DNA of 64,000 bases from Turneriella parva DSM 21527 (GCF_000266885.1 NC_018020.1:372001-436000), one strand, 5' to 3'; shown: positions 34,740-45,643, counted from the stretch's first letter. Numbers and translations: made by a program. Notes: a model not told the origin generated them from the letters alone.

Positions 34740-34776
34740 GGTTTGTTCCGCTGCGGTTGCCGCGGCTGAACAAACC
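34740..34776 (-). terminator. hairpin after the DUF6580-type gene
   Basis: ggtttgttc (34740-34748) and gaacaaacc (34768-34776) pair around an inner GC-rich stem. It begins 6 bp after the DUF6580-type stop (34782) and precedes the ilvH start (34697), so it separates the riboswitch-controlled unit from the ilvH operon. Confidence 0.65.
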
Positions 34777-34781
34777 TGCTG

Positions 34782-35363
34782 TCAGGCCCGTGACAGGTTC
34801 GGTGAAGCCGCAGCAAGCAGCACAAAATGCCGCTGGGCTATGTGAAATCCCCCGAAAAGGAGAGTCACGAATACCGCATCACCCATGAGTGTGCCCTGAT
34901 AGAAAGGCAACGCCGCCGCGTAACACGCGACCAGACCCGCGAACGTCGGCGGGTAAAGACCGCCGCCGGCCCATACGCCGAAATTAGAGACCGAAAAGAA
35001 AATCAGCCCGGCGACAAGTGCCGCGATCACGGTGCGCGCCACGGTCACACCGCGACGAAAGATGGCCAGGCCAAAGAGAGAGATGACGGCATATGCCGAG
35101 TATTGCCAGTAGAACCCCGGGTAGAACCAGACGAAAGGTTGGCCGCTGGCAGCGTACGTGACATTATTCAGAAACAGATCACTCAGAAACACGGCACCCA
35201 GCGGCAAAACTATGGCCTTAGCTTTACCCGAAAAATGTGCTGCGGCAAAAAGTGCTGCGGCGTTCAGAGGTGACAGATTCGGCAGGTGCGGTATGACGCG
35301 GCTAAAGGCAGCCGCGAACACAATCGTCACCAGCACCGAAAAACGGGGATTTATGGACTTCAT
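34782..35363 (-). CDS. DUF6580-type multispanning membrane protein, putative transporter
   Basis: A 193-aa membrane protein, five to six helices. Landmarks resembling the DUF6580 family: FSRVIPHLPNLSPLNAAALF (~20-39), SGKAKAIVLPLGAVFLSDL, then a Trp/Tyr/Phe-rich loop QPFVWFYPGFYWQYSAY, and FSVSNFGVWAGGGLYPPTFAGLVACY. The ATG at 35363 has GAGGG upstream; a longer in-frame start only adds Arg-rich residues. It is 10 bp downstream of the lipoprotein gene under the cobalamin riboswitch, so it should share B12 control. The compact helix bundle resembles ECF S-components in size, which is inference, not homology shown here. Confidence 0.7.
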   Translation of the reverse strand: MKSINPRFSVLVTIVFAAAFSRVIPHLPNLSPLNAAALFAAAHFSGKAKAIVLPLGAVFLSDLFLNNVTYAASGQPFVWFYPGFYWQYSAYAVISLFGLAIFRRGVTVARTVIAALVAGLIFFSVSNFGVWAGGGLYPPTFAGLVACYAAALPFYQGTLMGDAVFVTLLFGGFHIAQRHFVLLAAASPNLSRA

Positions 35364-35373
35364 TTGGTGGCCC

Positions 35374-36636
35374 TCATGGCAGAAGCTGCGTCCACGAAAA
35401 GCCACCGCAGCCGCTCGCCGCGGGATTCGTCTTCGTCGTCGTGTCGGCAATCGCGGCTGCTGCATTGGCCGTCGCCGAATCAAACGGGCTCACGGTACAG
35501 GTATACCACGAGCCGCTGAATTCGGTGAGAATCATCTTCTGGTACTTCGACGGGTTGTACGTGTCGCTTGCCGATTTCTGAATCACGAGATACCCGTCGA
35601 TTGCGTTGTAGCGGATTATCGCGTCGGTCGAAGGGGTGCCGTAGTCTGAAACCCAGTTAGAAACCGAGATTGTGTGTTTGCCCGAATAGGCGTCGCGCCA
35701 TTTGCCGATCAACGGATTTTTCACCGGACTGAGTTTCGTCCATGAAAAGCCCGAGCAACCGCCCGTCAGCGGGTTCGTCTTAGTCGTGTTGTCAGTGATC
35801 GCCTCTGCCGTTGCGGCGTCGTTGCTGTTGAAAGGCGAGAGCGTACAGGTGTAAAAAGAACCGTCGCTGTTCGAGATATACACCACTTTTTGAAACTTTG
35901 AAGCGTTATACGCATCGGCAGCAGATTTCTGCACGATAAAATAGCCGGCCTGTCCGTTTATTTTGGTGATCGTATCGGTCTGGTTAGTCCAGTCGTCTTT
36001 GAGCTGCCAGGTGCCTGCAGTCAGAAAATGTTTGCCGCCGTAGTTGTCGGTAAAGCTACCCGAAAACCGGTAGCCAAGAAAGTTCGCAGTCGCCGTGGCA
36101 TCGCTCACCAACGGCACAACCGAGCCGCGCGAGACCTGAACCACGGCCTTCACAACAACGTCAGCATCAAATGCCGAAACTGTCTGGTTAAAGTTGATCG
36201 TGGTGCCCGCAAGCAGGTCGCGCACAGCCTGGCGTATCTCGATGCCATTTTCAGCAACGCCGTCGCTGTCGACGGTCTGTAAGAATCTAAGCATGTTGAT
36301 GACACTCTGGTCGCTGAGACCCGTGCCCGATGCCGAAAGATGTTCGGGTGTCATGTACGCGATGGCGGGCCCCGAACCAAGAACGGTTTTGCCGATCGAG
36401 AAAGTCACCTGCTCGCCCGCCTGATATCTGAAGTTGCCGTCGGCGTCGGTTATGCCCCGCTGGGTCGACGTGCTGTACTCAACGCCCTGCACGGGCGCGT
36501 CGATAAACCTGCCGGTGAAAACCTCGGCAGAGACGGCTGAGCCGTTTTCTGAAATGCCCGCATTGCCAGTGCAATGCGCTGCTGCGAAAGCGACCAGCGT
36601 AAAGCACGCCGCTCGCTGAATGTGTCGATAAATCAT
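35374..36636 (-). CDS. lipoprotein with two C-terminal repeats, under cobalamin riboswitch
   Basis: A 420-aa predicted lipoprotein. Signal MIYRHIQRAACFTLVAFAAA, probable lipobox AAHC (Cys22). The N-terminal domain (GRFIDAPVQGVEYSTSTQRG, then FRYQAGEQVTFSIGKTVLG and INMLRFLQTVDSDG) is a known bacterial surface-protein pattern. The C-terminal half holds two ~110-residue repeats. Each starts GKHxxxxxxW, contains YFIVQKSAADAYNASKFQKV or YLVIQKSASDTYNPSKYQKM, then FYTCTLSPF or WYTCTVSPF, and ends with a Cys-Gly-Phe-Ser-Trp-Thr block. One Cys of each strand pair is conserved, suggesting a disulphide per repeat. The cobalamin riboswitch 143 nt upstream implies B12-responsive expression and a surface role in corrinoid capture is proposed. 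Confidence 0.7.
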   Translation of the reverse strand: MIYRHIQRAACFTLVAFAAAHCTGNAGISENGSAVSAEVFTGRFIDAPVQGVEYSTSTQRGITDADGNFRYQAGEQVTFSIGKTVLGSGPAIAYMTPEHLSASGTGLSDQSVINMLRFLQTVDSDGVAENGIEIRQAVRDLLAGTTINFNQTVSAFDADVVVKAVVQVSRGSVVPLVSDATATANFLGYRFSGSFTDNYGGKHFLTAGTWQLKDDWTNQTDTITKINGQAGYFIVQKSAADAYNASKFQKVVYISNSDGSFYTCTLSPFNSNDAATAEAITDNTTKTNPLTGGCSGFSWTKLSPVKNPLIGKWRDAYSGKHTISVSNWVSDYGTPSTDAIIRYNAIDGYLVIQKSASDTYNPSKYQKMILTEFSGSWYTCTVSPFDSATANAAAAIADTTTKTNPAASGCGGFSWTQLLP

Positions 36637-36719
36637 TTTTGCCCCTTGGGGAAAAAACAAGAACGGAACAACGCAGCGTTGCACTGCGAGAACCGGCCCC
36701 GTCGTTTCCCGGAGCCCGC

Positions 36720-36756
36720 AATCTGAGCATCAAAAAAAATTTACTCAGATTTTTTC
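36720..36756 (+). terminator. intrinsic-terminator-like hairpin, plus-strand orientation
   Basis: aatctgag (36720-36727) and ctcagatt (36744-36751) pair across a 16-base A-rich loop and are followed by six T on the plus strand. It would stop plus-strand transcripts entering the riboswitch/amtB region. On the minus strand it lies between the cobalamin aptamer and its gene, so it could also belong to the expression platform. Confidence 0.5.
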
Positions 36757-36778
36757 GGCTGGCGGCCGTTACCTCGGG

Positions 36779-36948
36779 CCACCTGCACAAGAGTTCCCGA
36801 CTTACGCCGGTATGTAGGGGTAGGTTTAAACCTACCCCTACATACCGGCGAACACGGTTGCGGGTCAGCGCCGGATTCTCACCGGACTTCCTCTTACGTG
36901 CACGGGTATTTACCCGTGCGCGTCGGTTAACCTCTATGCATCAGGTGG
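36779..36948 (-). promoter_or_regulatory. cobalamin (B12) riboswitch aptamer
   Basis: Read on the minus strand, the core matches the cobalamin aptamer consensus: GAGGAAGTCCGGTGAGAATC, then CCGGCGCTGACCCGCAACCG, a variable arm, then AAGTCGGGAACTC. The closing helix P1 pairs CCACCTG (at 36948-36942) with CAGGTGG (at 36785-36779). A 9-bp hairpin gcacgggta/tacccgtgc (~36900-36919) forms the early arm. The 46-bp palindrome 36805-36850 fills the variable arm. It points at the lipoprotein gene starting at 36636, 142 nt downstream. The expression platform is not certain; the AAGGGG ribosome-binding site lies within CCCCAAGGGG, so translational control is possible. Confidence 0.88.
36805..36850. repeat. 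perfect 46-bp palindrome (riboswitch variable arm)
   Basis: Bases 36805-36827 are the exact reverse complement of 36828-36850, with no spacer. In RNA it would form a ~21-bp stem inside the cobalamin aptamer, between the CCCGCAACCGTG and AGTCGGGAAC blocks, where the consensus allows a variable hairpin. Confidence 0.9.
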
Positions 36949-43390: not shown

Positions 43391-45643
43391 ATGTTTTCGT
43401 TACCACTGCGATTCGCGATGCTCGTCACGGCCCTCTCAACGGGCATCTTCGCCGCCGATTTCTCGGGCCGGGTTGATGCAGAAGACGGCAAGCCCGTCGA
43501 AGATGCCGACGTGACGATACCCGCAATCAACAGGCACCTGCATACCGATGCTGCCGGTATTTTCAAATTCACTGACCTGCCCCGCGGAGTTTTTGCCGTC
43601 AAGATTACTAAAGAAGGTTTACCGTCGCGCGTTGTGACGATCGACCTCAGAAACGAAAACGTTGAACTCAAAATCAGACTCGATTACGTGCAGTTGAAAC
43701 AAGACACGATTATCATCTCGGGTTACCGGCCAGCCGACGAAGCAGAAATTGCACAGGCGGTTACCGTTATTGAAGGTAAAAAACTCGACCGCCTGCGCGG
43801 GCAGAGCCTCGTTCAGACAGTCGAAGATACGCCGGGCGTGGCAAACTTTTCAACCGGTAATTCTATCGCAAAGCCGGTGATTCGCGGCTTGCCTTCTTTT
43901 CGTTCGCTCGTGCTGGTCGATGGCATGCGCGAAGAATCACAGCAGTTCGGCGATGAACATGGGCCCAATATCGACATTCTCGATATGGACCGCATTGAAA
44001 TTGTGCGGGGGCCAGGCAGCCTGCTCTATGGCTCCGACGCATTGGGAGGAGTGATCAACGTCACGACACCCGAGTTGCCGCGCTCGGCCGAGCACGCAAA
44101 GACCCTCAGCGGAAAGGTTATCGGCAACGCCAATTCCAATAACCCTGGCGGCGCGGGCGCTATCTCGCTCGCGGGTGCTAAAAATGATTTTGGCTACCGC
44201 GGAAATTTCAGCTACCGCCAGGCGGGTAACACTCTCACTCCAGCCGGCGCAATCCCTAACAGCGCCTATGAGAATCTCAATGGCAGCGGGCTCATTGGCA
44301 TCAATGAAAAATGGGGCATGCTCTCACTGCGCTTCTCGCGCTACGATACAAAACTCAATTTGCCCCAGGCAACGAACGACGCCGCGGGAAAACTCATTGC
44401 CGATCCGGGGGCGACGACCTACCAGCGCGTCGCGCACAACCGGCTGCAGCTCAAATCGCTCATCCAGACTTCGATTGCGAAATTTGATATTGGCCTGACC
44501 TACCAGCAAAACCAGCGGCGCGAGTTTGAAGACAACATCAATCCCGACCCCAGGCTGAACCTGTTGCTCGATACCTTCAACTCTGAAATCAAGGCCCACC
44601 ATGCACCCTTGGGACCTCTCCTGGGAACAATTGGTCTGAGCTACATTTACCAGAAGAACCAAACGCTGGGGAGTGAACCGCTGATCCCCGGTTATACGGC
44701 CAATAGCTACGGCGCCTATCTCTTCGAAGAATTGCGCTTCGATGCCTTCAGTATCATGGCGGGCGTGCGCGGTGATACGCGCGTGCTCTCGGTCCAGCAG
44801 AATGCGCAGCTCGGCAACAACAACGAAACTGTTCAGAATTCAGCGATGACAGGTTCGGTCGGCGCAGTCTGGCGCTTTGCACCGGGCTGGTCGCTCTTCG
44901 CCAACCTCGGCCGCGGCTTTCGCGCCCCCACAATTTTTGAGCTCTACAGCACGGGAGTGCACGAAGGCGCGGGCACGTACGACATCGGCAAGAACGATCT
45001 CAAGTCAGAAACCTCGGTGACCACAGACAGCGGCATACGCGTTCGCAAGGGCAAGGTGCGCGCCGAGCTGAACGGCTATTACAACCGTATCGACAACTAT
45101 GTGTTTGCTGTGCCAACCGGCAATATTCAGAATGTCGACGGCAATGCGTATCCCGAATACCAGACGACCCAGGGCAGGGCGACGATTTATGGCGGCGAAG
45201 CCGATGGCGAATTTGCGCCGCTCAAATGGTTAACACTTTCTGCCGGCGTCGACCTGATCTATGGCCGCAATGAAACGCTCGGCGAGCCGCTGGCGCTGAT
45301 ACCCGCCAACCGCTACCGAACGGGAATCACTTTCAGCGGCGACAAACTGGGATCAATTCTGAATCCTTATATCAGCCTGAAGGCGCGCTATGTCGCACGC
45401 AAAACAGAAATTTCTGCAGCCGAGCGCACCCTTTACCCGGGTTTTGCCGACTATACGCTGGTATCGCTTTCAACCGGCGGTGACTTTGCGGTCGGCGGCC
45501 AAATGTGGACATACACGATCGGCGCCGACAACCTGCTGAACCAGCGTTACGTCGACTACCTCAGCCGGCAGAAGCTGTTTGCGCTGAATCCGGGGGTGAA
45601 TGTCTATTTCAAGATCACGGCCCCATTTGATTTAGTCGATTAG
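43391..45643 (+). CDS. TonB-dependent outer-membrane receptor
   Basis: A 750-aa receptor. After a signal peptide (~1-21, ending FAADFSG) a carboxypeptidase-regulatory-like domain (GRVDAEDGKPVEDADVTIPA, to ~95) precedes the plug: DTIIISGYRPADE, SLVQTVEDTPGVANFSTGNS, KPVIRGLPSFRSLVLVDGM, and RIEIVRGPGSLLYGSDALGG. The 22-strand barrel follows, including LGRGFRAPTIFELYSTG and TIGADNLLNQRYVDYLS. The last residues (FDLVD) lack the usual terminal Phe, although a Phe is five from the end. A Fur-like box upstream suggests iron-siderophore or heme uptake. The extra N-terminal domain is more typical of Bacteroidetes receptors. Confidence 0.88.
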   Translation: MFSLPLRFAMLVTALSTGIFAADFSGRVDAEDGKPVEDADVTIPAINRHLHTDAAGIFKFTDLPRGVFAVKITKEGLPSRVVTIDLRNENVELKIRLDYVQLKQDTIIISGYRPADEAEIAQAVTVIEGKKLDRLRGQSLVQTVEDTPGVANFSTGNSIAKPVIRGLPSFRSLVLVDGMREESQQFGDEHGPNIDILDMDRIEIVRGPGSLLYGSDALGGVINVTTPELPRSAEHAKTLSGKVIGNANSNNPGGAGAISLAGAKNDFGYRGNFSYRQAGNTLTPAGAIPNSAYENLNGSGLIGINEKWGMLSLRFSRYDTKLNLPQATNDAAGKLIADPGATTYQRVAHNRLQLKSLIQTSIAKFDIGLTYQQNQRREFEDNINPDPRLNLLLDTFNSEIKAHHAPLGPLLGTIGLSYIYQKNQTLGSEPLIPGYTANSYGAYLFEELRFDAFSIMAGVRGDTRVLSVQQNAQLGNNNETVQNSAMTGSVGAVWRFAPGWSLFANLGRGFRAPTIFELYSTGVHEGAGTYDIGKNDLKSETSVTTDSGIRVRKGKVRAELNGYYNRIDNYVFAVPTGNIQNVDGNAYPEYQTTQGRATIYGGEADGEFAPLKWLTLSAGVDLIYGRNETLGEPLALIPANRYRTGITFSGDKLGSILNPYISLKARYVARKTEISAAERTLYPGFADYTLVSLSTGGDFAVGGQMWTYTIGADNLLNQRYVDYLSRQKLFALNPGVNVYFKITAPFDLVD

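Follow-up and report, generated by a model that had tools for sequence, protein, structure and literature searches.

Genes and features of the locus

Within the window (the whole stretch of 64,000 nucleotides from Turneriella parva DSM 21527 that was analysed), a minus-strand transcript is headed by a cobalamin riboswitch aptamer and carries two genes 10 bp apart, one for a lipoprotein and then one for a DUF6580 membrane protein, as the first-pass annotation had described. The hairpin that it placed at the end of this transcript is also there, as an inverted repeat at 34776-34740. The features of the locus are as follows.

36774-36935, minus strand: cobalamin riboswitch aptamer (RF00174, cmscan), heading the transcript
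36805-36850, minus strand: hairpin-forming perfect palindrome of 46 nt within the variable aptamer part (sequence and fold)
36758-36786, minus strand: conserved hairpin with loop CGAGGTAAC, directly after the aptamer core (covariation)
36720-36751, minus strand: second hairpin AATCTGAG/CTCAGATT, its loop containing a T-run (leader sequence comparison)
36711-36719, minus strand: conserved box GCGGGCTCC, able to pair through its GCTCC with the Shine-Dalgarno region
36641-36647, minus strand: Shine-Dalgarno sequence AAGGGGC, ahead of the ATG at 36636
35374-36636, minus strand: lipoprotein gene, 420 aa (ATG start at 36636, signal peptide with Cys22)
35719-36060, minus strand: lipoprotein repeat 1 (about residues 193-306), predicted lipocalin-like barrel (AlphaFold2 model)
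35377-35706, minus strand: lipoprotein repeat 2 (about residues 311-420), same predicted fold (identity to repeat 1, and model)
34782-35363, minus strand: DUF6580 membrane protein, 193 aa, six membrane helices (PF20221, E 5e-49)
34740-34776, minus strand: inverted repeat GGTTTGTTC/GAACAAACC after the last gene, at the end of the transcript, with no T-run

The aptamer core strings quoted in the earlier annotation are present in the sequence, and the Rfam covariance-model check that it proposed gave a significant match to RF00174 (31.3 bits, E 4.3e-5, model positions 1-189 aligned in full) when 7 kb were compared with all of Rfam by cmscan; the genome-wide search returned the same aptamer with E 6.3e-6. 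Because the Rfam gathering score for this family is 31.5, 0.2 bits above that of the window aptamer, a default Rfam scan of the window misses it. In the genus, leaders of the same operon families reach 36 bits with RF00174. All aptamer calls reported here rest on covariance models; a stricter regular-expression search missed known aptamers and was set aside. In Turneriella-type leaders, long hairpins of unrelated sequence occupy the same variable aptamer site (in the window, the palindrome at 36805-36850), as if they had been swapped repeatedly.

Leader structure and a candidate mode of control

The P1 stem CCACCTG/CAGGTGG proposed in the first-pass annotation, with strands 160 bases apart, had to be rejected because its 3' strand, CAGGTGG, belongs to the 5' arm of the conserved local hairpin at 36786-36758. 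Across 11 leaders, that of the window plus ten of relatives, standard pairs fill 90% of the hairpin's cells, both sides have changed in 38 cells compared with 12 in shuffles, and the covariation score is 0.82 against 0.25 for shuffled alignments, while slid versions of the hairpin all drop to about 40% pairing.

Control by transcription termination was considered and rejected, as no U-run stands behind a hairpin at the right position in the leader; the second hairpin (36751-36720) is, by its position, not an intrinsic terminator. In the 12 leaders that could be scored, GGGCUCC or a variant of it can pair with the Shine-Dalgarno region just 5' of the start codon. For any single sequence this pairing is suggestive (shuffle fractions 0 to 0.34), and the two sides co-vary across leaders (GCUCC/GGGGC, GCUCCG/UGGAGC, GGCCUUU/GGAGGCC). 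The absent U-run and this co-variation together lead us to prefer translational control, in which the box GCGGGCTCC may block translation by pairing with the Shine-Dalgarno region. Judging from the conserved pairing, when B12 is plentiful the aptamer would bind it and the leader would refold to place the GCGGGCUCC box over the ribosome-binding site, and when B12 is scarce the lipoprotein and DUF6580 genes would both be expressed.

A lipoprotein with two predicted barrels

In the lipoprotein, Cys22 is preceded by a hydrophobic stretch. The two Cys-bearing repeats of about 110 residues noticed at first pass make up the C-terminal half; they are 51% identical over 108 residues and hold one cysteine pair each (Cys264/294 and Cys380/410). 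Relatives with a single repeat keep two cysteines and one tryptophan, and they head B12 operons throughout the class. AlphaFold2 modelled the repeats with a pLDDT of about 70-92 (62 for the whole model, the N-terminal half being poorly modelled), and the modelled repeats resemble lipocalin-like and avidin-like barrels, the best match, to a lipocalin-like protein, being at Z 9.9 over 91 residues, no more than moderately above background. The predicted barrels fit a small-molecule binder and, given the operons described below, the lipoprotein is probably a corrinoid binder with two lipocalin-like barrels.

Searching the PDB with the lipoprotein profile gave one weak lipoprotein match (5cyb, E 2e-4), all others being at chance level. 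Among NCBIfam families, the repeat weakly matched the LIC13354 family exoprotein of Leptospira (LIC13354_fam, NF047669; E 2.5e-6) at 27.9 bits, far below the cut-off of 130. LIC13354 is a hypothetical protein, raised 3.8-fold in host-adapted L. interrogans (PMC3953431), and relatives of the window lipoprotein likewise occur in Leptospira-type genomes, where they head riboswitch operons.

The DUF6580 protein and its relation to B12 S-components

The first-pass assignment of the 193-aa multispanning protein to DUF6580 stands, with 167 bits against PF20221 where the Pfam cut-off is 27. A PDB search with the single sequence found nothing, and a profile built from 22 DUF6580 sequences had one match only, 6FNP (E 5e-6), which is ECF-CbrT, a complex whose S-component CbrT is B12-specific (PMC5997447). 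The AlphaFold model of the protein (pLDDT 93, pTM 0.89) aligned best with BtuM in VIA-align (Z 14.3, rmsd 3.5, 167 residues). The top 21 structural rows were all BtuM or ECF S-components, at Z 9-14, with rows 3 to 21 being ECF S-components for folate, biotin, riboflavin, thiamin and others. Foldseek E-values for the model were weak (best 0.03, BtuM 0.4), and we therefore base the fold assignment on VIA-align together with the agreement among the hits. As modelled, DUF6580 has the six-helix fold of an ECF S-component.

BtuM (PDB 8ovv/8c7p; PMC6072759) and DUF6580 are alike in being small six-helix proteins of S-component fold in a B12 context in Gram-negative hosts; BtuM is a solitary S-component-type B12 transporter, and the window's host genome likewise has no EcfT. 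However, the two share 13% identity in the structural alignment, occur in different phyla, and BtuM was not listed by the DUF6580 sequence profile search. BtuM also carries an invariant, cobalt-ligating Cys80 (PMC6072759), whereas no invariant cysteine was found among the 22 DUF6580 sequences, and this criterion places DUF6580 outside the BtuM family. CbrT (6FNP; PMC5997447) resembles DUF6580 in occurring in B12 auxotrophs that lack BtuCDF and in its B12 substrate, which for DUF6580 is a predicted one, but in Firmicutes CbrT acts together with an ECF module, and most tested DUF6580 genomes are without EcfT. CbrT failed to sustain E. coli growth when its ECF module was absent (PMC5997447), and therefore a solitary DUF6580 member need not transport. 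By analogy and from the model, DUF6580 would work like BtuM or CbrT in outline. DUF6580 is named in no paper of the literature searched, which leaves most subscription journals and preprints outside it.

In a tree of 85 DUF6580 sequences, the window copy groups with those of L033, L035, L025 and L030 (support 100/95), among Bacteroidota-type members, and the riboswitch-linked copy may thus have come from another phylum. The host has a second DUF6580 copy, which falls in a separate clade of seven unlinked copies from the genus (100/100). This copy (L024 9286-9807, C1:3859327-3859794) has no riboswitch, is conserved in the genus, and adjoins genes that by eye are alpha/beta hydrolase-like and ABC-type ATPase-like.

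B12 genes of the host genome

The host genome (4.41 Mb, two contigs, 99.99% complete) carries two cobalamin aptamers only, according to the genome-wide covariance search. The second, at C1:3383106 (36 bits), heads an operon for the lipoprotein LP280 (280 aa), a TonB-dependent receptor that has a Plug domain, and the lipoprotein LP381 (381 aa); we call this receptor BtuB-like because of its riboswitch operon context. The earlier statement that no BtuB, BtuF or Cbi gene is present is therefore right for the window transcript and not for the genome, where the BtuB-like receptor lies under the second riboswitch. Another TonB-dependent receptor in the window (43391-45643) is nearest to haem/haemoglobin types, with its best match under the cut-off (TIGR01785, E 2.5e-54); it was rejected as a BtuB partner, given this haem-type match and no riboswitch above cut-off in the window.

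Searches of the host genome gave no match to the FecCD/BtuC permease (PF01032) or to EcfT (CbiQ family, PF02361), and found neither CbiC nor SbmA/BacA, so that the latter was dismissed as the B12 importer. One lone PF01497 protein, without a permease, is present, as are B12-binding enzymes, two of which read by eye as MetH-like and mutase-like. The host spirochaete is apparently a B12 auxotroph, with no synthesis of its own and dependent on imported corrin.

Operons in spirochaete relatives

DUF6580 and the aptamer were sought in forty relatives, 60 stretches were read, and the profiles were iterated over these stretches. Among the 27 relatives having both, DUF6580 lies within 4 kb of an aptamer in 10, where 0.12 would be expected. 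The order riboswitch, lipoprotein, DUF6580 is common to the window and L025. In L036, a single operon holds the riboswitch, the window-lipoprotein family, DUF6580, LP280, a BtuB-like receptor and LP381; L052 and L054 combine the window-lipoprotein family, LP280, a DUF4430 lipoprotein, DUF6580, a BtuB-like receptor and LP381, and L043 and L047 have divergent operons. In Leptospira-type stretches (L061, L077, L078, L081, L082), a riboswitch is followed by the window-lipoprotein family and LP280. The gene immediately before DUF6580 in riboswitch-linked spirochaete operons is usually a lipoprotein, and one type of lipoprotein in this place carries DUF4430 (PF14478, E 1.5e-11), a domain that occurs in transcobalamins too (PMC4350170). 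The partners in relatives are thus B12-related, comprising BtuB-like receptors, DUF4430 lipoproteins and lipoproteins whose family also occurs in fusion with DUF4465; the first-pass annotation had regarded unrelated partners as evidence against its proposal.

Two nearby copies of the window-lipoprotein family lie in one B12 operon region of L052 (5764-6165 and 7579-8259). In L030 (3826-4932), L038 (10449-11534) and L071 (9473-10564), the position of the window lipoprotein after the riboswitch is taken by a different lipoprotein of about 365 aa that looks propeller-like by eye, and those of L030 and L038 had no match to the profile of the window lipoprotein.

Among relatives without FecCD, DUF6580 is present in 21/24 that lack CbiC versus 2/7 that have it (p 0.006, not corrected for kinship); G013, G022 and G039 have none of FecCD, CbiC and DUF6580. 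Of ten relatives with strong FecCD matches, nine carry DUF6580 as well. No riboswitch lies near the host's second copy or the Leptospira-type copies; members of the family may therefore not all have one substrate, and that of the unlinked copies may be another. In the Leptospira-type stretches L040, L041, L042 and L055, DUF6580 lies away from riboswitches, several times near a MazG-like gene; these genomes are mostly without FecCD, and DUF6580 is a candidate B12 importer there too.

Riboswitch-linked DUF6580 in other phyla

The first-pass annotation had suggested looking for upstream cobalamin riboswitches of DUF6580 genes across genomes. Scanning a collection of 84,980 species, each represented by a single genome, yielded at least 80 DUF6580 loci, and cobalamin aptamers were present in 47 of the 50 DUF6580 genomes tested. 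By coordinates, on the assumption that matching coordinates mean the same contig, a same-strand aptamer lies upstream of DUF6580 within 7 kb in 30/50, within 4 kb in 25/50 and within 500 bases in 16/50. Direct cmscan found the aptamer at the expected place in all 11 loci checked, with up to 115 bits. Linked loci occur in Bacteroidota, Planctomycetota, Chlorobiota, Ignavibacteriota, SAR324, Rokubacteria and others.

The neighbours of DUF6580 in these phyla include TonB receptors, a DUF5074 beta-propeller, a PF01497 (BtuF-type) protein and a DUF4465 protein, DUF4465 being a B12-binding domain (PMC13398666). Within one protein of L130, an LP280-like stretch stands beside DUF4465. LP280 itself was considered as a DUF4465 protein and rejected, since it has no Pfam match and its like adjoins DUF4465 in the fused protein. 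Among 30 riboswitch-linked DUF6580 genomes of other phyla, 26 are without EcfT and 14 have strong FecCD matches; DUF6580 is therefore sometimes additional to a BtuCD-type system. A diphthamide-synthase-like PP-loop protein, possibly a corrinoid-related enzyme, adjoins DUF6580 in different phyla (L025 3312-4064, L035 5224-5949, L139 3951-4643, with PF01902 in L139, and others).

A candidate arm of a B12 uptake regulon

The computed aptamer, operons and fold family and the missing alternative importers argue that the gene pair is an arm of a B12 (corrinoid) uptake regulon, in which the lipoprotein captures and DUF6580 imports without an ECF ATPase module, and we hold this to be likely. The corrinoid capture or import route put forward at first pass thus gains support from the covariance model, from the B12-uptake partners in relatives and from riboswitch-linked DUF6580 elsewhere, the function being a prediction from sequence. 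Passage of the outer membrane would be via the BtuB-like receptor operon under the host's other cobalamin riboswitch. The lipoprotein, exported and anchored, would bind corrinoid with its two barrels at the surface or in the periplasm, and DUF6580 would carry B12 over the inner membrane with no ECF ATPase module, the mode of transport proposed for BtuM. The BtuB/BtuG/BtuH/BtuJ loci of Bacteroides (PMC6143338, PMC8941943, PMC13398666) are likewise cobalamin-riboswitch operons with a TonB receptor and several lipoproteins. Their B12-binding lipoproteins, however, are of beta-propeller and DUF4465 type, whereas the window lipoprotein matches no Pfam family of those loci, and the inner-membrane step falls to BtuCDF in Bacteroides and here to the candidate DUF6580.

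Instead of a solitary carrier, DUF6580 could be a B12- or corrinoid-binding S-component that needs an unrecognised energising partner, be it an unusual ATPase or another energised system. This would agree with the S-component fold of the model and with the requirement of CbrT for its ECF module (PMC5997447), but EcfT occurs in 2/41 genomes (the host being without it) and in 4/30 other DUF6580 genomes, and no ATPase stood out among the commonest DUF6580 neighbour clusters, as judged by eye with a few representatives scanned. We regard such a partner as unlikely. We think it similarly improbable that the pair moves another B12-related compound (cobinamide, a corrinoid precursor or a lower-ligand base) and not complete cobalamin. 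Cobalamin riboswitches do control precursor salvage as well. CbrT and BtuM also handle cobinamide (PMC5997447, PMC6072759), which may be an additional substrate of the pair; yet the host, having no CbiC, appears dependent on imported corrin, and both families occur in BtuB-like operons.

In some bacteria, cobalt importers are under cobalamin riboswitch control, so a transporter of cobalt or another metal under B12 control has to be weighed. The host has no marker of corrin-ring synthesis (CbiC) that would need cobalt, and the relation of DUF6580 to the B12 S-components CbrT and BtuM speaks against the cobalt-handling role that the first-pass annotation had offered as an alternative; we consider it very improbable. 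The score 0.2 bits below the gathering cut-off could mean that a degenerate aptamer or a chance match precedes a gene pair that has nothing to do with B12, but context and leader structure are conserved in relatives, and genes and riboswitches lie together far more often than by chance (10/27 against 0.12 expected), leaving this explanation with next to no credence.

Implications for B12 acquisition

According to the authors of the BtuM study, inner-membrane B12 importers are in most cases unidentified (PMC6072759). Many B12-requiring bacteria have an outer-membrane receptor and no known inner-membrane importer, and DUF6580 is a concrete candidate for this step, on which riboswitch control, operon partners, phyletic pattern, sequence profile and fold converge. 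A broader proposition, for and against which we see the balance as even, is that DUF6580 proteins are widespread solitary B12 importers, free of an ECF module and without the BtuM cysteine, that supply the missing inner-membrane step in auxotrophic spirochaetes (Leptospira relatives included), many Bacteroidota, Planctomycetota and others, and that the lipoprotein is a new corrinoid-binding class made of tandem lipocalin-like barrels. If true, this Pfam family of so far unknown function would gain one, a missing piece in the B12 economy of environmental Bacteroidota and of spirochaetes would be in place, and DUF6580, being without the BtuM cysteine, would provide an independent test of ATPase-free B12 import by an S-component.
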